A DNA stretch of 36,605 bases from Bacteroidales bacterium (GTDB lineage Bacteria; Bacteroidota; Bacteroidia; Bacteroidales; UBA7960): positions 1 to 36,605 of the forward strand of contig SLNU01000031.1 in assembly GCA_007132865.1 (NCBI GenBank). Direction: 5' to 3'. Every line of letters begins with the position of its first letter. Position 1 is the first letter of the stretch. This document shows, piece by piece, positions 13,220 to 36,021 of this stretch. The notes below the pieces were generated by a model, which did not search any database, had not been told where the DNA came from, and saw nothing but the letters and a program-made list of their open reading frames with translations. A program made the position numbers and the translations under genes.

Positions 13220-14323
13220 ATGGAGAAGGCAGCAATCAAAAAGGGTATGGAAAGCAGGGCGGGACGAATGCTGCTGCTGGCAGCAGCGTTCGCCTGCCTG
13301 TTGCCTGCCTGTTCTGTCTATTATTTCCCACATCATGCCCATTCCGATATCCATGAATTCCAGATGCTTGAGATCAATGGCATCAGGCAGGCCGTATTGG
13401 TGAGAGGCAATGATGTGTCCAACCCGGTATTGGTGTATCTGCATGGCGGACCCGGTTTTCCGCTGTTTCCCTTCGAGCCGGCAGGTGAAACCATGCAGCG
13501 ACTGGAGGAGGACTTTACCTTGGTGTACTGGGAGCAGCGTGGAACGGGTAAATCCTTCAGCAGGGGAATTCCTTCCCAATCCATGTCGATCGACCAATTT
13601 GTGGAAGATGCACGCGTGGTCACCGCCTTTGCCCTGGAGTTGACCGGACAGGAAAGGGCCTTTGTATGGGGACATTCCTGGGGGAGCGGTATAGGTGTGC
13701 TGCTGGCTGCCCGCTATCCGGAGCTCATCGAAGCCTATATCTCGACCGGACAAAGTGTGAATCCCTTCCTGAACGAACGCATCGGCTTGGAGTTTGTCAG
13801 GGAGCGTGCCCTTCAGGAAAACAACCGCAGGGCACTCAGGCAACTGGAGTGGATTGACACCATACCCGATAATTACACCCTGGCAGATGCCCTGACAATC
13901 AGGCGCTGGGTTTACCGTTTTGGGGGGGTCGTCAGGGAAAGCACCCACGAAAGGCCATATGTGGACCTGCAGGAGATTGCGGACATGCTGACAGCTCCCG
14001 AGTACAGCATTGGCGAGCGTATCAACCTGATCCTCTCCCCACTTTATTCTGTGGGAAAACTCTGGGACGAGATAAAAAAAATGGACCTGAACCGGGATGC
14101 ACCCCGGGTCGAGGTTCCGGTGTACTTCTTACTTGGCCGGCACGATGTGATCGTCTCCTCAGCGCTGGCAGCAGCATATTTTGAGGAATTGCAGGCAACG
14201 GCAGGGAAAACCCTCCACTGGTTCGAACATTCTGCCCACCGACCGCAAAAGGAGGAAAGGGAGAAGTTCCTGGAGATCATGAAAGAGATCCGGGAAAGCT
14301 ACTTCAGGCAAGCCGGGAATTAA
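13220..14323 (+). CDS. Lipoprotein alpha/beta hydrolase (proline iminopeptidase-like)
   Basis: This is an alpha/beta-hydrolase related to proline iminopeptidases. From ATG 13220 the protein is 367 aa, with a basic start, a hydrophobic stretch and lipobox LLPAC (Cys31), so it is probably anchored in the outer or inner membrane. Motifs in order are HGGPG (oxyanion loop, about 75-79), WEQRGTGKS, GHSWGS (nucleophile Ser about 153), GRHDVIV (catalytic Asp) and EHSAHRPQ (catalytic His). The triad is complete. The substrate is not readable; a peptide or ester released in the periplasm or at the surface is plausible. In-frame starts upstream (13136 and others) would put 28 unlikely residues, including repeat sequence, ahead of the signal. 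Its stop overlaps the stop of the convergent SDR gene. Confidence 0.88.
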   Translation: MEKAAIKKGMESRAGRMLLLAAAFACLLPACSVYYFPHHAHSDIHEFQMLEINGIRQAVLVRGNDVSNPVLVYLHGGPGFPLFPFEPAGETMQRLEEDFTLVYWEQRGTGKSFSRGIPSQSMSIDQFVEDARVVTAFALELTGQERAFVWGHSWGSGIGVLLAARYPELIEAYISTGQSVNPFLNERIGLEFVRERALQENNRRALRQLEWIDTIPDNYTLADALTIRRWVYRFGGVVRESTHERPYVDLQEIADMLTAPEYSIGERINLILSPLYSVGKLWDEIKKMDLNRDAPRVEVPVYFLLGRHDVIVSSALAAAYFEELQATAGKTLHWFEHSAHRPQKEEREKFLEIMKEIRESYFRQAGN

Positions 14324-15174
14324 TGCGCCCCACCTTGATGTGCCTCACCGTGATGTGACCCGGCGTAATGTGACCCGCCGTGATGTGACCCGCCGTGATG
14401 TGACCCGCCCTGGCTTTCGTCCCTTCTGATCACCGTCGCCGAAGCCTGTGCCGAAGGCATTAGTAACAGATCATCCACGTTGACATGGCCGGGCATGTCG
14501 ATTGCAAACTTAACCGCCACTGCCACGTCCTCCCCGCTCAGGGGCCGGAATCCACTGTACACGCCTTTGGCCTTCTGTGCATCCCCATGGAACCTGACCA
14601 GGCTAAACTCGGTCTCGACTGCGCCGGGACTGACCTGGCTGACCCGGATGCCATAAGGCAGCAGGTCCAGCCGCATTCCCTTGGTGAGGGAACTTACCGC
14701 ATGCTTGGTGGCACAATAAACGTTGCCGTTGGGGTAGGTTTCCCTTCCTGCGATGGAGCCAATGTTGATGATCTGTCCCTGCCCGCGTTCTATCATAAGT
14801 GGTATCACGGCCCGGCTGACATACAACAATCCTTTTACATTGGTGTCAATCATCTGGTCCCACTCCCCGGGATCTCCTCCGTCAATGCCTGACAAGCCCA
14901 GTGCCAGACCGGCATTGTTTATCAGCACGTCGATGTTTTTCCAGCCGGAAGGCAGCTTGCTGATGCCGGTTTCTACTGCGGCCCGGTCCCTTACATCCAT
15001 ACCCAGAAAATGGACCCCGCCGGCCCCCGCTTTTTTCAGTTCTTTACTGAGCCGCTCAAGGCGATCCAATCGCCTGCCGGTCAGAACAAGGCGGTGGCCA
15101 TCCACTGCCAGCAGCCTGGCGCAGGCTTCGCCGATGCCACTGCTGGCCCCGGTAATCATGATGGTTTTTGTCAT
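14320..15174 (-). CDS. Short-chain dehydrogenase/reductase with His-rich repeat tail
   Basis: This is a classical SDR: NAD(P)-binding TGASSGIGEA (about 8-17), NNAG (about 90), and the catalytic serine followed by YCATKHA (Tyr-x3-Lys). The core resembles NADP-dependent serine/3-hydroxy acid dehydrogenases of the YdfG type, which oxidise L-allo-threonine, serine or 3-hydroxypropionate; that substrate assignment is an inference. After the normal SDR end (about residue 255) comes a tail of about six GGSHH-like pentapeptides, encoded by 15-base repeats at 14323-14410 and rich in histidine and glycine. This could bind Ni, Zn or Cu, or be a harmless by-product of repeat expansion. The stop shares bases with the stop of the convergent hydrolase (14320-14323). 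Confidence 0.92.
   Translation of the reverse strand: MTKTIMITGASSGIGEACARLLAVDGHRLVLTGRRLDRLERLSKELKKAGAGGVHFLGMDVRDRAAVETGISKLPSGWKNIDVLINNAGLALGLSGIDGGDPGEWDQMIDTNVKGLLYVSRAVIPLMIERGQGQIINIGSIAGRETYPNGNVYCATKHAVSSLTKGMRLDLLPYGIRVSQVSPGAVETEFSLVRFHGDAQKAKGVYSGFRPLSGEDVAVAVKFAIDMPGHVNVDDLLLMPSAQASATVIRRDESQGGSHHGGSHHGGSHYAGSHHGEAHQGGAH
14323..14410 (-). repeat. 15-base tandem repeat encoding the SDR His-rich tail
   Basis: About six copies of a 15-base unit encode Gly-Gly-Ser-His-His and variants (SHY, EAHQ, GAH toward the stop). The copies farthest from the stop are the most alike and those next to the stop the most diverged. The unit length preserves the reading frame. It lies at the extreme 3' end of the gene, like other repeats in this window. 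Confidence 0.85.
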
Positions 15175-24619: not shown

Positions 24620-27508
24620 ATGAATCGTCTTTTCTTTTTCATAAGCCTTCTCGTTTTTTCCATATCCCTTTCTGCGCAGCCTGGCGGGCAAAGGCCCGGC
24701 GGGCAAACCGGGCAGCGTCAGTCAGGCGACCAGGCAGAGGTCCTGGTCTCAGGATACGTGAAGGACAGCTCAGACAACACCTCCCTGCCTGGCGCCCACG
24801 TTTCACTGATGCATTTTCGGGACTCTACCAGGGTATATCGGGCCACCACCGATCCTGATGGCAAATTTTCAATAAGGGTTTTACGGGGCAGGTATTATAT
24901 TGGAGCGAGCTTTGTGGGTTACCAGTCGTTGGTACTTGCCGAACCCATTGCCGCCAACCAGGCAGAGAACGTAGTGGAGGACCTGAAACTGACCCCTGGT
25001 TCATTGCTCGACGAGGTGCAGATCACCGGTGAACGCCCCAGCGTTTTGGTCCGCGGCGATACATTGGACTTTGATGCACGGGCCTTCCGCTTGAATCCCG
25101 ACGCCAGTGCAGAGGACCTGATCCGCCGTATGGCGGGGATTACCGTCCAGGATGGGGCAGTCACCGCACAGGGTGAGGAGGTTCGCCGGGTATTCGTAGA
25201 CGGAAGGGAATTCTTTGGGGATGACCCCTCCATCGCCCTGCGTAACCTGCCAGCAGAGGTCATCGAACGCATCGAAGTGTACGACCAGATGAGCGACCAG
25301 TCGGAGTTGACGGGATTTGACGATGGGGAAAGGAGCAAGACCATCAATATCGTGACCCGGCTGGATACTAGAAGTGGTCAGTTTGGCCGGGCATATTCCG
25401 GGTACGGAGCGGATGAGCGCTACCAGGCCGGACTGGTCACGAACATCTTCCACAACGATGCACGGATCTCCATCCTGGGAATGACCAACAACATCAACGA
25501 ACAGAATTTCACCCGGGAGGACTTCCAAAGCTTCTTCGGTGGAGGTGCACGCGGCGGTGGTGGCGGAGGCGGGCGCGGCGGTGGTGGCGGTGGGATGCCC
25601 ATGGGAGGCATGCCCATGGGGGATTTTCGGGGTGGCAACCGCCCCGGGTTCAATACGACGCACGCACTTGGACTCAATCTCAGCAATTCATGGAACGACA
25701 AGCTGAATGTTTCCGGGAGCTATTTTATGAACATCTCCGACAACATCACCAACCAATTCACCGACCGGCAATACTTCCTGGATGACATCAGCTCCCAGCT
25801 ATACCGGGAAAACTCGGAAGAAAACAGCCGCAGCAACAACCACCGGTTTTCGATGCGGATGAACTACGACATAGACGAACGGAATTCCATCCGTTTCACG
25901 CCAAGGGGCTCCATACAGAACAACAATTCAGACAGCTATTTCAACGCCTTCAATGCCTTGGGCGACAATGTCCTGCTGAGCCAGTCAGAAACCGGATATG
26001 ACTCCGATCTTTCAGGCTATAATTATTCAGGCTCCCTGCTTTACAGGCGGCAGTTTGAAAAGCGGGGCAGGACGGCTTCGATCAACATGAGCTCCAATGC
26101 CAACAACAACCAAAACCTGTACTTCCTGGATGCCCTCAACGAATATTTCAGTGAAGGGGAGACCGATCCGGCCAATGAGAATGTGGTCAGTGACTATTTG
26201 AACCAACGATCCGACTCTGAAACCATTAACAATACCATCTCTTCCAATATCAGCTATACCGAGCCTTTTGGGGAGAGGGGCCTGGTGCAGGTCAGCTACA
26301 ACATCTCAAGGGCCCGCAGGGAAACCGACCGGGTGACCCACAGCTGGGACGATGAACTGGATGTGTATGGATTGTTCGAGCCTGAGCTCTCCAACAGACT
26401 CCAAAGCAATTACCTGACCCAAAGGGGCCAGATCGGTTACAGCTACCGCCAGGATAGGCTGAATATGACCTTTGAATTGGGATACCAGCACGCAGAATTA
26501 AATGCCGACCAGGAATTTCCCTATGCGACGACCATTAACCGTACTTTTCAGAACGTATTGCCCGGTTTCCGGCTGAACTACAATATTGCCCGTGGGAAAT
26601 CCCTGCGCTTCAATTACCGGACCAGTACCAGTGCCCCTTCGGTCAACCAGCTGCAGGATGTGGTGGACAACTCCAACCCGATGTTGCTTTCTTCGGGGAA
26701 TCCGAACCTCAACCACAGCTATTCCCACTTCTTCATGGGGCGATTCAACACCACGAATACCGAGAAACTGACCACCTTCTTTGCCTTTTTGATGGGGAAC
26801 TTCTCAAGCGGTTACATCGGCAATTCTACTACCATTGCATTGAATGACACCATTTTGCCTGGCGGAACTGAGCTCAGGAAAGGGACCCAATATTCTTTGC
26901 CGATGAACATGGATGGCTTTGCCAACCTCCGTTCCAACCTTACTTATGGCTTCCCGCTGAGGTTCATTAAGAGCAATATCAACATGAGCTCAAGACTTTC
27001 CTATTTGCGGACCCCAAGCATGATCAACGGGCAGACCAATTTTGCGAACAGTTACACCATGGGAGGGGGGATCGACCTGAGCAGCAATGTGAGCCGCAAC
27101 GTGGACTTTACCCTTTCGTACAACGCCAATTACAACATCGTTGAAAACACGATGCGCCCACAACTCGACAATACTTACTACCTGCAGACCACCGGGGCGC
27201 GGTTCAGTTTTATCTTTCTGGATAAATGGGTGTGGAGGTCGGATATCAGCTACCTGATGTACCGCGGACTCGGAGAGGATTTCAATCAGGACTATGCCTT
27301 GTGGAATATGAACGTGGGACGGAAATTCCTAAAAAACAATCTTGCGGAGTTGACGCTGAGTGTGTTTGACTTACTGAAGCAGAATGACAGTATCATCCGA
27401 AACGTCTCGGGCAATTACGTAGAGGACCTTCGTACCAACGCCCTGACCAGGTTCTTTATGCTGACATTTACCTATAACCTGCGTAACTTCAACGTACGGG
27501 AGGCTTAG
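24620..27508 (+). CDS. TonB-receptor-like outer-membrane beta-barrel protein
   Basis: This 962-aa outer-membrane protein is of the Bacteroidota OMP_b-brl_3/TonB-dependent-receptor-like type. A signal peptide (MNRLFFFISLLVFSISLSAQ) is followed by a Gly/Gln-rich linker. Next come a carboxypeptidase-regulatory-like domain (LVSGYVKDSSDNTSLPGAHV, about 45-130) and a plug-like segment (LDEVQITGERPSVLVRGDTL through DDGERSKTINIVTR). A long barrel follows and ends in FTYNLRNFNVREA. A loop near residues 305-335 is almost all glycine (GGGARGGGG, GGMPMGG). No SusD partner follows, so a SusCD polysaccharide system is not supported; the cargo is unknown. ATG 24620 is used; TTG 24617 directly precedes it. 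The stop is immediately followed by a heptamer array and then a terminator. Confidence 0.9.
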   Translation: MNRLFFFISLLVFSISLSAQPGGQRPGGQTGQRQSGDQAEVLVSGYVKDSSDNTSLPGAHVSLMHFRDSTRVYRATTDPDGKFSIRVLRGRYYIGASFVGYQSLVLAEPIAANQAENVVEDLKLTPGSLLDEVQITGERPSVLVRGDTLDFDARAFRLNPDASAEDLIRRMAGITVQDGAVTAQGEEVRRVFVDGREFFGDDPSIALRNLPAEVIERIEVYDQMSDQSELTGFDDGERSKTINIVTRLDTRSGQFGRAYSGYGADERYQAGLVTNIFHNDARISILGMTNNINEQNFTREDFQSFFGGGARGGGGGGGRGGGGGGMPMGGMPMGDFRGGNRPGFNTTHALGLNLSNSWNDKLNVSGSYFMNISDNITNQFTDRQYFLDDISSQLYRENSEENSRSNNHRFSMRMNYDIDERNSIRFTPRGSIQNNNSDSYFNAFNALGDNVLLSQSETGYDSDLSGYNYSGSLLYRRQFEKRGRTASINMSSNANNNQNLYFLDALNEYFSEGETDPANENVVSDYLNQRSDSETINNTISSNISYTEPFGERGLVQVSYNISRARRETDRVTHSWDDELDVYGLFEPELSNRLQSNYLTQRGQIGYSYRQDRLNMTFELGYQHAELNADQEFPYATTINRTFQNVLPGFRLNYNIARGKSLRFNYRTSTSAPSVNQLQDVVDNSNPMLLSSGNPNLNHSYSHFFMGRFNTTNTEKLTTFFAFLMGNFSSGYIGNSTTIALNDTILPGGTELRKGTQYSLPMNMDGFANLRSNLTYGFPLRFIKSNINMSSRLSYLRTPSMINGQTNFANSYTMGGGIDLSSNVSRNVDFTLSYNANYNIVENTMRPQLDNTYYLQTTGARFSFIFLDKWVWRSDISYLMYRGLGEDFNQDYALWNMNVGRKFLKNNLAELTLSVFDLLKQNDSIIRNVSGNYVEDLRTNALTRFFMLTFTYNLRNFNVREA

Positions 27509-27627
27509 TTGGTTATTGGCTATTGGGTGTTGGCTATTGGGTGTTGGGTGTTGGTTATTGGCTATTGGATGTTGGCTGTTGGTTGTTGGTTGTTGGTTAT
27601 TGGCTATTGGATGTTGGCTGTTGGGTA
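27509..27627 (+). repeat. Heptamer array 1: 17 units of TTGGNTR
   Basis: Exactly 17 seven-base units begin at the first base after the TAG stop of the beta-barrel gene (27506-27508) and run without interruption to 27627. All 17 fit TTGGNTR. There is higher-order structure: the four-unit block with variable triplets TTA, CTA, ATG, CTG occurs at 27551-27578 and again at 27593-27620. A rho-independent terminator follows two bases later, so the array lies in the 3' untranslated part of the beta-barrel transcript. Confidence 0.95.
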
Positions 27628-27629
27628 TG

Positions 27630-27667
27630 AAAAAGCCCCTCTTTCTTTCGGATAGAGGGGCTTTTTT
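27630..27667. terminator. Bidirectional rho-independent terminator
   Basis: AGCCCCTCT (27634-27642) pairs with AGAGGGGCT (27654-27662) around an 11-base loop, extended by an A-run on the left and a T-run on the right. The symmetrical A/T tails let it end both the plus-strand beta-barrel transcript and the minus-strand csp transcript, whose stop lies 40 bases to the right. Confidence 0.92.
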
Positions 27668-27706
27668 TGGTCAATCCTGACCTTTTTGGATAAGTTCAGT
27701 CTTAAC

Positions 27707-27898
27707 CTATGCGAGTTTAACGTTTGCCGCATTCAAACCTCTTCTGCCTTCCTGCAGTTCAAAGGTCACTTCGTCGCCTTCGCGTACCTGGTCGATCAGA
27801 CCTGTTGCGTGTACGAAGTATTCGTTATCTGACTCATCATCTTTAATAAATCCAAATCCTTTAATTTCGTTAAAGAATTTAACTGTTCCGTTTTTCAT
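27707..27898 (-). CDS. Cold-shock domain protein (CspA family)
   Basis: This 63-aa single cold-shock domain protein binds single-stranded RNA/DNA and acts as an RNA chaperone. RNP1 is KGFGFIK (13-19) and RNP2 YFVHATG (27-33); the start is MKNGTVKFFNEIKG. The length and both motifs are standard. The gene has a leader of about 70 bases containing an inverted repeat, and a promoter with both Bacteroidota elements, so it is probably monocistronic, ending at the terminator at 27630-27667. No Shine-Dalgarno site precedes the ATG; the upstream bases are A/T-rich. Confidence 0.96.
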   Translation of the reverse strand: MKNGTVKFFNEIKGFGFIKDDESDNEYFVHATGLIDQVREGDEVTFELQEGRRGLNAANVKLA

Positions 27899-27920
27899 AA
27901 TAATGTAATGTGTGTTAATT

Positions 27921-27950
27921 GGAATTAATCAACATACTTGAATTAATTCC
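27921..27950 (-). promoter_or_regulatory. Inverted repeat in the csp 5' leader
   Basis: GGAATTAAT (27921-27929) and ATTAATTCC (27942-27950) form a perfect nine-base stem with a 12-base loop. It lies in the transcribed leader of the cold-shock gene, starting 22 bases upstream of the ATG. Cold-shock mRNAs such as E. coli cspA are controlled by temperature-dependent leader folding, so a similar role is plausible. An operator for a DNA-binding protein is the alternative. Confidence 0.55.
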
Positions 27951-27971
27951 CTTTGTTAATAATAATCCCGA

Positions 27972-27998
27972 CAAAGGTACAAAAAAAAGCCTTAGCAA
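27972..27998 (-). promoter_or_regulatory. csp promoter (-33 TTG, -7 TACCTTTG)
   Basis: On the minus strand TTG (27998-27996) is followed after 16 bases by TACCTTTG (27979-27972), close to the Bacteroidota consensus TTG-N17-19-TAnnTTTG. Initiation is expected near 27967, giving a leader of about 70 bases. It is the only promoter candidate in the window with both elements near normal spacing. Confidence 0.58.
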
Positions 27999-28053
27999 TA
28001 CGGTTTTGCATTATTTTTTTAAAATATGGCTGTTTATGCGTTATTAAACCGGC

Positions 28054-28902
28054 TTACTCCCCTTTTTTTACCGGTTTTACCCCATAGTCGGATGGGGAAG
28101 CAGAGATGGCCGCACCGATAGCGGTGCAATATTCTGCATGTTTGGGGATGTGGAACTTTACTTTATACAGTTTGGAAAGGGAGTCCAGTATTTTTCCTGC
28201 CAGCGGGGCGTTCACCAGCTTTCCGGAAAGCACGATGTTCTTGTCACCATGTTGCCGCGCTGCGAAAATGGACATCATGCCGATGACCTGGAAAACCATA
28301 TTAAGGATGCCCTTGGTAATGTCCTCCTTGCTGGCCTGTTCACTCATCTTGCCGAAGTTTGAGGCGGTGATATTGCTTGGCAGGTTGCCGATCTCTGACT
28401 GTGAGATGTCTCCCACGCTAAGGTCAATGTTCCCCAGCCTCCCTTTGGAGGCAGCTTCCATGATATTGTCAAAGTTGGAGAGGTTTACCATGGCCTTTGA
28501 CAGTCCGAGTATTGTTCCGCCTCCGACACCTGTACCACCAAGGTGACTGATGCATTGTCCGTGGGCCTTTACAAAGGCCGTCCCCGTGCCCATGCTGACA
28601 ATAATGGCATTCTCCAGTCCGGAGAGGAAAAGTCCGCCGTATCCAAGCGCCCTGAACTCCGCAATTTTCTTAAGTGGCAATCCCAGCAGCTGGTCACCCA
28701 GAAAGGAAGCCCCTACACCGGTAATGATGACTTTATCAATTTCCTGCAGGCTTAGCTTGTGGGTGCTAAGGAACTTTCCCATCGCACCGGAAGCCGATGC
28801 CACCGGGTCATTGGCTTCCACCGTAAGCGGCTCCAGGATCTTGCGTCCGTTGATGCCGACAATTTTTGTGGTACTTCCGCCGATGTCAATGCCTATGGTC
28901 AT
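28054..28902 (-). CDS. coaW: Type II pantothenate kinase
   Basis: This ASKHA-fold kinase phosphorylates pantothenate at the first step of CoA synthesis. It starts MTIGIDIGGSTTKIVGI and has a VIITGVGASFL segment, VSMGTGTAFV, HLGGTGVGGGTILGLSKAM and NIVLSGKLVN, the pattern of type II (S. aureus CoaW/eukaryotic-like) enzymes rather than type I (CoaA) or type III (CoaX). The 282-aa length fits bacterial type II forms. All nucleotide-binding segments look intact. Type II enzymes usually resist feedback inhibition by CoA, at least in staphylococci. It lies upstream of csp on the same strand, but csp has its own promoter. A TAACTTTG motif upstream may drive it. Confidence 0.92.
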   Translation of the reverse strand: MTIGIDIGGSTTKIVGINGRKILEPLTVEANDPVASASGAMGKFLSTHKLSLQEIDKVIITGVGASFLGDQLLGLPLKKIAEFRALGYGGLFLSGLENAIIVSMGTGTAFVKAHGQCISHLGGTGVGGGTILGLSKAMVNLSNFDNIMEAASKGRLGNIDLSVGDISQSEIGNLPSNITASNFGKMSEQASKEDITKGILNMVFQVIGMMSIFAARQHGDKNIVLSGKLVNAPLAGKILDSLSKLYKVKFHIPKHAEYCTAIGAAISASPSDYGVKPVKKGE

Positions 28903-28931
28903 GCTTTGTGTTTTTAACTGGTTTGCAGAGG

Positions 28932-28939
28932 CAAAGTTA
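28932..28939 (-). promoter_or_regulatory. Possible coaW -7 element (TAACTTTG)
   Basis: The minus strand reads TAACTTTG, a TAnnTTTG match 29 bases before the coaW ATG, in an A/T-rich stretch. No -33 TTG at normal spacing was found. Confidence 0.38.
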
Positions 28940-29020
28940 TAAAATATATGGATGTGCCTTATTTATTGCTGCATTGTCTGTTCCACCTGCCGCAGCAATG
29001 CCTGTCCCTTCAAGCCAGCC

Positions 29021-30217
29021 TTATATCCCGATCTCCAACTGGAACATCAGGTTCCAGAAGCTCTTGTCTTCAGAATGCCCGCCTAAGTTCTCCTGGTGAG
29101 AAAGGTTCAACTGAAGCTTGTTGCGGTGCTTTACCAGGTACTTGGAAACTCCCAGCGTATAGATGTTTATATTTTGCTCCGTAACCATGTCCGGCACCAC
29201 CCGGGCATACCTGCCCGCCAGTTCGTACATGGATGGGAATACATAACTTAGCTGGGTGTTGATGCCTTTCCCGGTGAACACGTATGTGAGTCCGTCTCCA
29301 GTAGAAGGCAAGAGTGGCAAGATTTGCCGGGGCGTACTACGCCAGGCTGCCTCTGACTGCAGAGCCCAGCCCTGGTATTTTGCGATCAGGTCAATAAAAT
29401 AACTGTGTATATCAACTGGAGTCTCTAATGCGGCGCCTCGTTGACCGGCATCCCTTACTGCCATGTGGTTGAAGGAATAGGTGGCACCAAGGGCTAGTTT
29501 CGGACTGCTTTCCCTTTCCAGGTCGCCCTCCGAGAAGTCCCCGTCATTTTTAAACGGTCCGAGCGGCAGCAGCTCCAAGCGTCCGGTATAGGCCAATCCG
29601 TTGTCTGTCCGCTGCATATTCCTTCCTTCCCCGGTCGAGATGGATCCCTTCAGGTTGTAATGCATGCTCCCCAGGCTGTTGTTGTAATAGCCCATCAGTC
29701 CGAAATCCCTGTCGATATTGAAAATGGCGTTGACCAGCGAGCGGTCTGCAAATTGCTGCTGCCCGCTGGAGATCACCCGTTGCCTGTTTCCGGGGAGTTT
29801 CCCCTGGCCCATGCCGATGTAAAAGCGGTCTGAAAAGTTGTAAAATACCATGGCATCCCTGACAATCCCCGGGAAGCCCGTATTGTCCCAGTCCTGGTCT
29901 CCCCTCGAAAAGGAAAGCTGCAGGTAATAGGTCAGTCCGGATTTTCCCACGAACCCGTCAAAGCGAAGCCGTAGCCTCCGCACATTGGCTTCGAATGATT
30001 CGGGGCTGAGGTCGGAAGCCGAATAGGTCGTGATGCCAATCCGGTTCTGCATGCGAAAGCGCAGGTTGAGTCCGAAGGTGGAATCAGGGGCAAAGAACCC
30101 AAGGCCCTTGTCAAAATTGATTACCGCCCGTTCATCCACTTCTGTTTGGGCATGTAGGAAAACCGGCAGAAGCACGGCAAGGAAAGAAAGAATCAGTCTT
30201 TTGCGCAAGGAAGTCAT
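29021..30217 (-). CDS. Porin O/P family outer-membrane porin
   Basis: This outer-membrane beta-barrel protein of 398 aa belongs to the phosphate-selective porin O/P family. A signal peptide ends LPVFLHAQ. The mature part has GLGFFAPDSTFGLNLRFRMQNR, VRRLRLRFDGFVGKSGLTYYLQLSF and FYIGMGQGKLPGNRQRV, typical of the family's first strands. It has alternating aromatic/polar strands to the end (NLMFQLEIGI). It should form a trimeric channel; actual selectivity is unknown and the name is historical. It begins 47 bases after the lutA-like gene on the same strand, so cotranscription is possible. No Pho-box-like sequence was recognised. Confidence 0.9.
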   Translation of the reverse strand: MTSLRKRLILSFLAVLLPVFLHAQTEVDERAVINFDKGLGFFAPDSTFGLNLRFRMQNRIGITTYSASDLSPESFEANVRRLRLRFDGFVGKSGLTYYLQLSFSRGDQDWDNTGFPGIVRDAMVFYNFSDRFYIGMGQGKLPGNRQRVISSGQQQFADRSLVNAIFNIDRDFGLMGYYNNSLGSMHYNLKGSISTGEGRNMQRTDNGLAYTGRLELLPLGPFKNDGDFSEGDLERESSPKLALGATYSFNHMAVRDAGQRGAALETPVDIHSYFIDLIAKYQGWALQSEAAWRSTPRQILPLLPSTGDGLTYVFTGKGINTQLSYVFPSMYELAGRYARVVPDMVTEQNINIYTLGVSKYLVKHRNKLQLNLSHQENLGGHSEDKSFWNLMFQLEIGI

Positions 30218-30264
30218 GGAAAGCAGAAGGATTAAAGGATCCAGAAACGATATTCATCCCGGTT

Positions 30265-30987
30265 TTACCGCAGTCCGGCCGCAAGCAGGTCGGCGATGTG
30301 CATGGTCTTGATGGGCAGCTTGTGTTTTTTGATGTATCCATCCAGTTGCATCAGACATGAAGCCTCCGTCGACACGATGTATTCGGCCCCGGTAGCCAGC
30401 GCATGCTGTACCTTCTGCTCGGCCATGGCCGTGGAGATGGCTTCATGTTTTACAGAAAAAGTGCCACCGAAACCGCAGCATACGTCACTTTCCTCCATTT
30501 CCAACAGTTCCAGTCCGTCTACAAACCCCAGCAACTCCCTAGGCTCTCCCTTTAGTCCGTATTCCCGCAAGGCAGCACAGGAGTCGTGAAAGGTGATCCG
30601 GGCCTCGAACCTGGCACCAAGATCCGGCTTTTTCACCATATTGACCAGGAAGTCTGTGAACTCAAAGATCTTTTTCGAAAGGTAGTTGTTCTCGTTGTGC
30701 CAGGCTGAATTGTAGAACATTTCCGGGTAGTAATTCTTTACCATGCCGATGCAGGATGCCGAGGGTCCGACTACATAGTCATACTCCATAAAGTCCTTGA
30801 TGAACTTCTCTCCCAGACATTTGGCCTCATCCCAGAAACCATTGTTGAAGGCCACTTGTCCGCAACACGTCTGGGCAGGGTTGTAGGAAACCTTTACCCC
30901 GGCCTTTTCCAGCACCTTCACCATACTGTGCCCCGTCTCTGGCAAAAACTGATCAATAAAACATGGAATAAAAATACCGGTGTTCAT
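30265..30987 (-). CDS. LutA/LldE-like (Fe-S)-binding oxidoreductase subunit
   Basis: This 240-aa protein has two cysteine-rich CCG domains: IPCFIDQFLPE with TCCGQVAFNNG (about 41-51), and FHDSCAALREYG with VCCGFGGTFSVKH. That is the pattern of LutA/LldE, a subunit of the LutABC L-lactate oxidation complex, and of related heterodisulfide-reductase-type subunits. The cysteines are all present. The usual partners LutB and LutC do not follow; the next gene is a porin, so the partner genes must be elsewhere or the protein works in another complex. ATG 30987 lies three bases from a 30-unit heptamer array that fills the whole space back to rlmB, so no ordinary promoter or ribosome-binding site is present. 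Confidence 0.87.
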   Translation of the reverse strand: MNTGIFIPCFIDQFLPETGHSMVKVLEKAGVKVSYNPAQTCCGQVAFNNGFWDEAKCLGEKFIKDFMEYDYVVGPSASCIGMVKNYYPEMFYNSAWHNENNYLSKKIFEFTDFLVNMVKKPDLGARFEARITFHDSCAALREYGLKGEPRELLGFVDGLELLEMEESDVCCGFGGTFSVKHEAISTAMAEQKVQHALATGAEYIVSTEASCLMQLDGYIKKHKLPIKTMHIADLLAAGLR

Positions 30988-30990
30988 ATT

Positions 30991-31200
30991 TTGGGTGTTG
31001 GCTATTGGTTATTGGGTGTTGGCTATTGGTTATTGGGTGTTGGCTATTGGCTGTTGGGTATTGGCTGTTGGCTGTTGGCTGTTGGGTGTTGGATATTGGG
31101 TATTGGGTATTGGGTGTTGGCTATTGGCTGTTGGGTATTGGGTATTGGGTATTGGCTGTTGGGTGTTGGCTATTGGCTGTTGGGTGTTAGCTATTGGTTC
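30991..31200 (+). repeat. Heptamer array 2: 30 units of TTGGNTR
   Basis: Thirty uninterrupted seven-base units (210 bases) run from 30991 to 31200. Position 6 is T in all 30 and 29 of 30 begin TTGG; the variable triplets are mainly GTG, CTG, GTA and CTA. The exceptions are at the rlmB end: TTAGCTA (31187-31193) and TTGGTTC (31194-31200). The array starts three bases upstream of the lutA-like ATG and overlaps the last four codons of rlmB; the variant unit TTAGCTA provides the rlmB TAA stop. A 21-base superunit (triplets GTG, CTA, TTA) repeats at the left end. The G-rich strand is antisense to both flanking genes. Confidence 0.97.
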
Positions 31201-31921
31201 TTTGTCTTTGTGCTTCGAACAGTACTATGCCAGTGGCGACCGATACATTGAGGGAGGCGATTTTTCCCTTCATTGGGATGGAGAGGATTTTCCCGGCCAA
31301 TTTCAGGGATGCCGGCGAGACCCCTTTGTCCTCCGAACCCATGATGATTGCCACGGGTCCGCGCAAATCTGCCTCGTATATGGTTTCCTTTCCCTTTTCA
31401 TCGCAGGCAATTACTTCTATGCCGCACTCCCTGATAAAGGCAATGCTTTCCGGGATGCTGCTTTCCCGGCAGACCGGGATGCGGTTCAATGCCCCGGAGG
31501 ATGCCTTGATGGCTTCTGCATTGATGGGGGCCATGCCTTTCTCAGGAATGATCAGGGCATGTGCCCCTGCACATTCTGCAGAGCGGGCAAGGGCACCCAG
31601 GTTGCGCACGTCGGTGACGCCGTCGGCCAGCACCAGCAGCGGTGTCTCCCCCTGCTCGAATACCATCGGAAGTACCTCGTGCAGGGGCTGGTATTCTATC
31701 AAAGACCCAAAGGCAATGATTCCCTGGTGGTTTTTACGCGTTACCCGGTTGAGCTTCTCGATGGGCACCACCTGGAAGGGGATCTTCTCCCGGCGGATAC
31801 GCTGGAACAATTTTTGGAAATTATCGCCATGCAGGCCTTTCTGGATCAATACCTTCTCAATGGGCATCCCGTTTTCCAGGGCTTCCATGACCGGGTGGAT
31901 TCCGAATAATAAATTTTCCAA
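31187..31921 (-). CDS. rlmB: 23S rRNA 2'-O-ribose methyltransferase RlmB (TrmH family)
   Basis: RlmB methylates G2251 (E. coli numbering) in the peptidyl-tRNA-binding loop of 23S rRNA using SAM. An N-terminal substrate-binding domain (LLFGIHPVMEAL ... NHQGIIAF) precedes the SPOUT knot domain with DGVTDVRNLGALARSAE, IIMGSEDKGVS and IPMKGKIASLNVSVATGIVLFEAQRQR. All three SPOUT motifs are intact in 244 aa. The start is TTG 31921 (MENLLFG); no ATG is available at that point. The final residues TNS and the stop are encoded by heptamer array 2, immediately after the conserved FEAQRQR end. Confidence 0.95.
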   Translation of the reverse strand: MENLLFGIHPVMEALENGMPIEKVLIQKGLHGDNFQKLFQRIRREKIPFQVVPIEKLNRVTRKNHQGIIAFGSLIEYQPLHEVLPMVFEQGETPLLVLADGVTDVRNLGALARSAECAGAHALIIPEKGMAPINAEAIKASSGALNRIPVCRESSIPESIAFIRECGIEVIACDEKGKETIYEADLRGPVAIIMGSEDKGVSPASLKLAGKILSIPMKGKIASLNVSVATGIVLFEAQRQRTNS

Positions 31922-32003
31922 TGGCGGTGTGTTAATGGGGGTCTGTCCCCGGTTTGATTTTATGCAAATTTCGTAAAAAAAAGCGACCCCATGCAGGTTG
32001 CGA

Positions 32004-35113: not shown

Positions 35114-35807
35114 TAAGGCAGGGGAGTACAGCCGGAAGTTTGCCGGCATGGAAGCCGGAGACATCCTGGCACATGCCATGTGGTCGCATCCGGGAATGGC
35201 AGTTTTTTCGACCAGCCTGGGGGCGGAGGACCAGGTAATCACCCATATGCTGGCCACGCGGGGCTTCAAGGAAGGCATATTCACGCTGGATACCGGGCGG
35301 CTGTTCCCGGAGACCTATGAGCTGATGGAAAAAACCTGCGTGCGTTACGGGATCCGGATAGAGGTGTTTTTCCCGGATACAGGCAAGGTGGAGCAGATGG
35401 TCCGTGAGAAAGGCATCAACCTGTTCTATCAAAGCATAGAGAATCGCAAGCTTTGCTGCAATGTACGCAAAACCGAACCCCTGCGCAGGGCCTTAAGCGG
35501 AAAGGAAATCTGGATCACCGGGCTGAGGCGGGAGCAGTCCCCAACCCGTCAGGACCTGGCCTTGGCTCAGTGGGATGCGGCCAATCAGATCATCAAGGTA
35601 AACCCCTTGCTGGAATGGAGTGAGGAACAGGTCTGGGCATACATCCACCAACACAAAATCCCCTACAATACGCTGCACGACAAGGGCTTTCCGAGCATTG
35701 GCTGCCAGCCCTGCACCCGTGCGATCCTGTCCGGGGAGGACGTCCGCGCCGGCCGCTGGTGGTGGGAAAACCCCGACACCCGCGAATGCGGATTGCATAC
35801 GGACTAG
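35106..35807 (+). CDS. cysH: Adenylyl-sulfate (APS) reductase, CysH family
   Basis: This CysH-family thiol-dependent reductase makes sulfite for cysteine synthesis. SLGAEDQV is the nucleotide-sulfate-binding loop. The cysteine pairs LCCNVRK (117-118) and GCQPCTR (200, 203) are those of the 4Fe-4S-containing APS reductases, so APS rather than PAPS is the likely substrate. The C-terminal ECGLH (Cys228) carries the catalytic cysteine. At 233 aa it is full length. Its ATG lies in the last copy of an 18-base repeat and its stop is three bases from heptamer array 3. No sulfate adenylyltransferase genes are adjacent. Confidence 0.95.
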   Translation: MENKAGEYSRKFAGMEAGDILAHAMWSHPGMAVFSTSLGAEDQVITHMLATRGFKEGIFTLDTGRLFPETYELMEKTCVRYGIRIEVFFPDTGKVEQMVREKGINLFYQSIENRKLCCNVRKTEPLRRALSGKEIWITGLRREQSPTRQDLALAQWDAANQIIKVNPLLEWSEEQVWAYIHQHKIPYNTLHDKGFPSIGCQPCTRAILSGEDVRAGRWWWENPDTRECGLHTD

Positions 35808-35810
35808 CTG

Positions 35811-36021
35811 TTGGGTGTTGGACATTGGGTATTGGGTATTGGGTATTGGGTATTGGACATTGGGTATTGGACTTTGGCTATTGGATATTGGACATTAGCT
35901 ATTAGCTAACAGCCAAAAGCCAATAGCTAACAACCAACAGCCAAAAGCCAACAGCCAACAGCCAACAGCCAACAGCCAACATCCAAAAGCCAATAGCTAA
36001 CAACCAACAACCAACACCCAT
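35811..36021. repeat. Heptamer array 3: inverted array of 14 + 16 units
   Basis: Fourteen plus-oriented units (35811-35908) are followed, after one extra base, by sixteen units in reverse orientation (35910-36021). They meet at the palindrome TTAGCTAA (35902-35909). The left half starts three bases after the cysH stop and is rich in triplets GTA and ACA; the right half ends on the first base of the SDR stop codon and is rich in CTG and CTT. Each half therefore reads TTGG-type downstream of its own gene. It fills the whole space between two convergent genes, with no ordinary terminator. Confidence 0.95.

Follow-up and report, generated by a model that had tools for sequence, protein, structure and literature searches.

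A TTGGNTR heptamer array between rlmB and a lutA-like gene in Bacteroidales: probably a length-variable minisatellite of gene borders

Tandem repeats can occupy the whole of the space between two genes. In a stretch of Bacteroidales DNA of 36,605 nucleotides (the window), a 7-base repeat fills the gap between rlmB and a lutA-like gene on the minus strand. Is this array a device that sets expression of the downstream gene, or a repeat that has settled at a gene border and is tolerated there? The initial annotation inclined to the former: it proposed that the minus-strand RNA acts as an unstructured leader and that changes in unit number would alter lutA translation or the rlmB C-terminus. We discuss the array, its length alleles, its relatives across genomes, and the direction in which such arrays face their genes, and we weigh the explanations that these features allow.

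The array is a real repeat of 30 heptamers in one register. As first described, it fills the space between the two genes, one variant unit supplies the stop codon of rlmB, and the opposite end lies 3 nt from the next start codon (Table 1). The dimer pattern TTGGNTRTTGGNTR has 53 matches in the window, against 0.02 expected from shuffles. On the minus strand, the units read YANCCAA toward the ATG of the lutA-like gene; at the other end, 14 nt of the array fall inside the rlmB frame, and rlmB terminates within the array, its last residues (T-N-S) being encoded by the repeat. The fixed core of the unit holds two G, and GGG is present in 13 of the 30 units. Among NCBIfam models, the lutA-like gene comes closest to the C-terminal portion of LdhH, at a score far under that model's cut-off, and "LutA" is thus a family-level name only.

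Table 1. Features of the rlmB/lutA-like gap and of other arrays in the window
Feature	Position	Strand	Remarks
rlmB, 23S rRNA (guanosine2251-2'-O)-methyltransferase	31187..31921	-	TIGR00186, 191.2 bits (cut-off 160.15); start codon uncertain
lutA-like gene	30265..30987	-	cysteine-rich CCG domains
Heptamer array	30991..31200	+	30 units, single register: 28 exact TTGGNTR, plus TTAGCTA and TTGGTTC
Variant unit TTAGCTA	31187..31193	-	rlmB stop TAA (31189-31187) inside unit
Unit TTGGTTC	31194-31200		final unit of the rlmB/lutA-like array
Sole non-array bases between array and lutA-like ATG	30988..30990		ATG at 30987
Sister array, 17 units	27509..27627	+	directly 3' of TAG (27506-27508) of outer-membrane beta-barrel gene
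GC-rich hairpin and T-run after the 27509-27627 array	27630-27668		read by eye; absent from the scan's list
Two-sided (palindromic) sister array	35804..36021	.	between convergent genes

The sense RNA of the gap has the character first ascribed to it: over the 210-nt array, it is 44% A, 41% C, and 7% G, and it folds no better than its shuffles (z 0.40). TAnnTTTG, the -7 motif of Bacteroidota, has no match on the minus strand in the scanned interval 30900-32000, and sigma-70-like matches at 27400-31950 number 7, about what chance would give (5.2 expected). The missing promoter and Shine-Dalgarno site had been presented as notable, a view that finds no support, since extracts of PMC6847099 describe the Bacteroidetes as naturally without Shine-Dalgarno sites. 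The same extracts name structure and an A at -3 as features that adjust initiation in Flavobacterium (PMC6847099), and an A is read at -3 of the lutA-like start in the window and in both alleles introduced below. A promoter in the gap is likewise not expected to be necessary, since short, array-free spacers in 19 relatives suggest that rlmB and the lutA-like gene are probably on a common transcript.

The locus exists in alleles of different length. The closest relative found is a Bacteroidales MAG, the sister genome G001, presumably from soda-lake sediment, to judge by the CSSed label it carries. It shares 98% of the lutA-like protein with the window, and the DNA is 91.5% identical over 3,486 aligned bases. 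The rlmB/lutA-like site has 30 units in the window, 15 on G001 contig C63, and 26 on G001 contig C307, lengths that come from short-read assemblies and may be misstated. Around the 15- and 26-unit alleles, the flanks (about 100 nt on each side) are identical at 99 of 99 and 104 of 105 positions. The rlmB C-terminus follows the array: the window reads TNS-TAA, and G001 locus L001 reads ANPQ-TAG. The variation foreseen for unit number and for the end of the protein is therefore real.

Besides L001, we examined 79 loci; rlmB lies beside the lutA-like gene in 19 of them and was not found within the DNA examined in the other 60. The spacer is free of an array in all 19, and its length, for which four lutA-like starts were placed by hand from the match, is 7-199 nt, with 63 nt or less in 17. 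In these relatives, rlmB terminates 1 to 15 residues past a common RQR motif. Such short, array-free spacers make it probable, as far as the compared loci tell, that the array is a later addition to a short spacer, and they led us to reject a long ancestral leader. The comparison among relatives, which the initial annotation had proposed as a check, speaks against a special leader at this locus.

Neither is the array peculiar to these two genes. In G001, triple-unit matches number 268 (198+70), against 23 (20+3) for the reversed control pattern. They occur in 8 of 19 other relatives (1 to 50 each); four-unit matches occur in 11 of 47 genomes of the family and five-unit matches in 20 of 395 genomes of the phylum, G001 included in both, and 7 of these 20 have control matches as well. 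In some genomes with TTGGTTG or TTGGTTA units (for example, G152, G353, and G034), the reversed control is about as frequent, and the motif is not separable from its reverse. We surveyed 60 G001 contigs, 24 picked for their matches and 36 not, which contain 250 of the 268 triple matches. Arrays, counted as composites of neighboring runs, number 26 on 24 of the 60 contigs, with one such contig (L147) among the 36 unselected. None of the 29 composites of the window and G001 lies within a called gene; several overlap gene ends. Run lengths range from 3 to 32 units with a median of 15 (in composites that have 5 or more units in one arm or both), and exact-run counts in the 60 contigs have no peak at 4 units. 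A device special to rlmB and lutA, as the array had first been viewed, is hard to reconcile with 26 such arrays in G001 and with array edges, in the window and G001 together, that touch stops at least as often as starts. Several G001 contigs end in an array or at most about 65 nt from one (the far end of L001, L121, L122, L131, L134, and L136); short-read assemblies thus probably fall apart at the repeats, and arrays would be undercounted.

The units have a constant and a variable part. All of 542 units from G001 have G at position 4, and 541 have T at position 2; position 1 is fixed in 524 and position 3 in 517, giving 95-100% across positions 1-4; position 6 is T in 456 (84%). Position 5 is free (C 196, G 130, T 124, A 92), and position 7 is mainly G and A. 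The 80 units of the window are conserved to 90-100% at positions 1-4 and to 95% at position 6. The array caller penalized mismatch everywhere except position 5, and conservation is thus partly built in; a fairer control is Tandem Repeats Finder, which works without a preset motif. In the window and G001, TTGGNTN accounts for 37 of its 45 period-7 rows, which may overlap, and 7 of the 8 remaining rows retain a CCAA core by reading; in other genomes, TTGGNTN accounts for 66 of 101 rows. Caller bias notwithstanding, a neutral array would hardly be expected to spare single positions so selectively.

The arrays follow a rule of direction. In the window and G001, 32 array edges lie close to genes: 18 at stops and 14 at starts. 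The TTGG strand is directed outward from the gene edge at 27 of them (p = 1e-4), that is, at 13 of 14 starts, where CCAA is the sense reading into the gene, and at 14 of 18 stops. The 5 edges that break the rule include 2 alleles of the rlmB stop. A gene edge was counted within 12 nt; right edges in the window and in L136 were allowed to 18 nt, which added two rule-breaking edges. A set rule extended edge distances to upstream ATGs. The genes come from a home-made gene finder with a coding coverage of 0.81-0.85 that misplaced the lutA-like start by 63 nt. Of the 18 stops that abut arrays, 12 are TAG, against 50 of 197 for other genes (p = 6e-4), an excess expected if TTAG variant units supply stops.

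The rule extends beyond touching edges. In the main set of 93 composites, merged within 60 nt and including the 29 of the window and G001, all 21 two-sided arrays run TTGG> <CCAA. One such array is that at 35804-36021 in the window, where the TTGG half starts from a TAG at 35805-35807 and the CCAA half reaches the TGA of a minus-strand gene. For one-sided arrays, the nearer gene is at the TTGG 5' end in 27 and at the 3' end in 8, with 6 ties (p = 0.002). By group, the ratios are 4:2 with 5 ties in the window and G001, which alone are uninformative for this test, 10:4 with 1 tie in G009, 8:0 in G010, and 5:2 in others. The rule recurs in G341, a further genome from the phylum search with a largest contig of 3.15 Mb and composites merged within 120 nt. 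Its one-sided arrays give 29:1 (1 tie; p = 6e-8); among its 25 two-sided arrays, 23 conform and 2 run the opposite way. Merging limits affect these counts: L147 holds two consecutive +- composites beyond the limit, and wider-spaced G341 pairs were counted as two one-sided arrays. All p values assume independent sites, which orthologous sites are not: the rlmB locus is common to C63, C307, and the window, and the 35804 locus to C307 and the window. L001 duplicates L119 and was omitted from the counts.

The placement survey proposed with the leader thus has two sides: placement relative to stops and starts is strongly non-random, as that proposal needed, and the rule is common to stops and starts, which points away from a pure translation-leader role. 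We considered two other origins, one for the rule and one for two-sided arrays. Coding constraint would favor one strand, as stops in the three frames of this array number 1 on the TTGG strand and 9 on the CCAA strand; this could explain starts, not stops. Fold-back copying of one arm looks unlikely as a source of two-sided arrays, whose arms, by reading, are often of different unit type.

Side observations concern the composition of these gaps. The arms of two-sided arrays tend to differ, with TTGGACA/ACT/GTA units on one and TTGGCTG/TTG units on the other (L120, L133, L134, L135, and L147); the TTGGACA/ACT/GTA arm is often at the stop side, a tendency that window 35804-36021 and L130 fit incompletely. 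A rule-breaking array in G001 (L113, contig C6, 3847-3909) lies about 300 nt from a match to the Rho RNA-binding domain (C6:3331-3552) and runs into a GCTGTT-type repeat. In G010 (L203, L205, L206, and L211), TTGG arrays run on into an octamer (CTTTTCAA) and sometimes into further heptamers (such as GGAAGGT and AGAAGAC), so whole gaps are composed of several tandem-repeat types. TTGGCTA arrays of G009 (L185, L189, and L193) seem to lie within a longer dispersed element with similar flanks (such as CAGACTAAGTAGGC and GGATTTTTGACACACAGGAGGATGATTATT). In G341 (L257, L259, and L263), two outward-pointing heptamer arrays of the GGATGAC/TTGGATG type surround a terminator-like hairpin between convergent genes; in a like manner, the window array at 27509-27627 has a stop codon on one side and, on the other, a GC-rich hairpin with a T-run. 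The window also holds 15-bp tandem repeats of the TGATGTGACCCGCCG type at 14321-14409, where two convergent, slightly overlapping reading frames meet.

How, then, is the array to be read? In the leader proposal, the CCAA RNA serves as an unstructured 5' leader or standby site of adjustable length, and the number of units acts as a rheostat on how strongly the lutA-like gene is translated. The 3-nt distance from the ATG, the lack of structure in the RNA, and the CCAA sense at 13 of 14 array-abutting starts agree with it, as do the tuning of Flavobacterium initiation by structure and A at -3, matched by the A at -3 here (extracts of PMC6847099), and the translational role proposed for TAACTGA heptamers before starts in Beggiatoaceae (extracts of PMC4679880). 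Like arrays, however, abut stops at 18 edges and sit between convergent genes, and the 19 relatives do without one; in addition, repeat-associated genes in the parts of Rehm et al. 2015 consulted here are random over functional classes, with no regulatory role identified (PMC4692102). A regulatory leader is possible, and we regard it as unlikely.

A second alternative makes the arrays Rho-dependent borders, which would halt antisense transcripts that run into stops and, once rlmB translation ends, attenuate expression of the lutA-like gene. C-rich, G-poor RNA is the composition associated with Rho loading, and the array RNA (41% C and 7% G over 210 nt) has it; moreover, one cause would cover starts and stops under the polarity rule, and G001 has two matches to the Rho RNA-binding domain. 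Yet sense-strand loading upstream of starts would harm the gene that follows, and we give this explanation little credence. It is more doubtful still that the repeat acts as bound or structured DNA, with the TTGG core at 7-base spacing as a protein-binding or two-tetrad G-quadruplex motif and the palindromic arrays as cruciforms or terminator-like hairpins. Conservation of the core would suit a binding site, the predicted RNA hairpin of the 35804-36021 array (-88.8 kcal/mol, z -7.22) would suit a structure, and GGG heptamers of Xanthomonas and Nostoc form quadruplexes in vitro (extracts of PMC4692102). Against these stand the restriction of GGG to 13 of 30 units here and the two-fold variation in length at a single locus, and we consider this reading very improbable.

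We favor instead a length-variable heptanucleotide minisatellite of gene borders, of the class described by Rehm et al. 2015, that would have colonized short intergenic gaps in this lineage of Bacteroidales and is tolerated here as an unstructured spacer; on balance, this is probably the right description. It takes in what the DNA itself displays: composition, allele variation, absence from relatives, and polarity. Units that share TTGG and mostly T at position 6, and vary at positions 5 and 7, would be gained and lost whole, probably by slippage during replication or by recombination of one unit with another. In a half array, the TTGG strand would have its 5' end toward a gene edge and point into the gap, and growth would proceed from the edge inward until one half fills the gap or two halves collide head-on. 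At rlmB and the lutA-like gene, a single half would have grown from the lutA-like start to rlmB, inserted in the short spacer of two co-directional genes, and would now carry the rlmB stop. The CCAA-sense RNA would be a C/A-rich spacer without structure, a case of tolerance rather than regulation, made acceptable by a phylum without need for Shine-Dalgarno sites and by an unstructured sense RNA. Neutral slippage alone, nonetheless, does not appear to explain why TTGG is near-fixed while positions 5 and 7 vary, and it would leave the orientation at stops unaccounted for, where coding constraint would disfavor the nearly stop-free TTGG strand.

Within the set of papers searched, in part with the array letters themselves, we found no earlier report of TTGGNTR arrays. 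Among known systems, the cyanobacterial STRR are comparable repeats with a heptanucleotide class and slippage as the proposed origin. LSSR are similar: in extracts of PMC4679880, heptanucleotides are the commonest long-unit class, and slippage is again proposed. Gene-relative polarity, which marks the TTGG arrays, is not known to be part of the descriptions of LSSR and STRR. From the same extracts come the TAACTGA heptamer arrays of Beggiatoaceae, Cyanobacteria, and five Bacteroidetes, for which MacGregor 2015 proposed a translational role (PMC4679880). They share with the arrays here a position near start codons, mostly without Shine-Dalgarno sites, and 7-nt-step indels between related Cyanothece resemble our whole-unit alleles; they differ in having another, non-degenerate unit and, in the genome described there, in lying mostly at starts, and TAACTGA is not among the units here.

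The closest likeness is to the G-rich heptamers GGGANTN of Xanthomonas and GGGGAYT of Nostoc (Rehm et al. 2015; PMC4692102), for which we draw on parts of that paper throughout. These lie at most 50 bp upstream of ORFs, where the G-rich strand is antisense, or downstream of stops, where it is sense; the TTGG strand found here has that orientation. Both sets are dispersed, mainly intergenic arrays; as in GGGANTN, positions 1-4 and 6 are conserved and 5 and 7 variable. The published repeats are closer to the 5' neighboring ORF, some overlapping stops, as in our genomes. Convergent inverted pairs, the counterpart of our two-sided arrays, occur in Xanthomonas and are few in Nostoc, and two Xanthomonas species have mostly the same sites with differing lengths, as do the alleles here (PMC4692102). 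The arrays here depart from that class in their unit, TTGGNTR, with two fixed G and not a tract of at least three, in their greater length without preference for four units, in their host phylum, Bacteroidota, and in often filling the gap and supplying stop codons (PMC4692102). Stop-supplying arrays show how such repeats edit gene ends, and with two alleles in near-identical flanks, long-read metagenomes would allow the gain and loss of units to be measured directly. What was reported for Xanthomonas, both the orientation and the design of the unit, recurs in another phylum with just two fixed guanines, which weakens the quadruplex as common cause and raises the question of how a repeat with a set direction comes to be written at gene borders. 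We tentatively suggest, as conceivable rather than likely, that TTGGNTR, GGGANTN, and GGGGAYT form one cross-phylum class that arises from a process dedicated to it or very specific. Such a process would begin at gene edges and lengthen the G-rich strand in the 5' to 3' direction toward the middle of the gap; the shared signature would be the conservation of positions 1-4 and 6, and not strong quadruplex potential.
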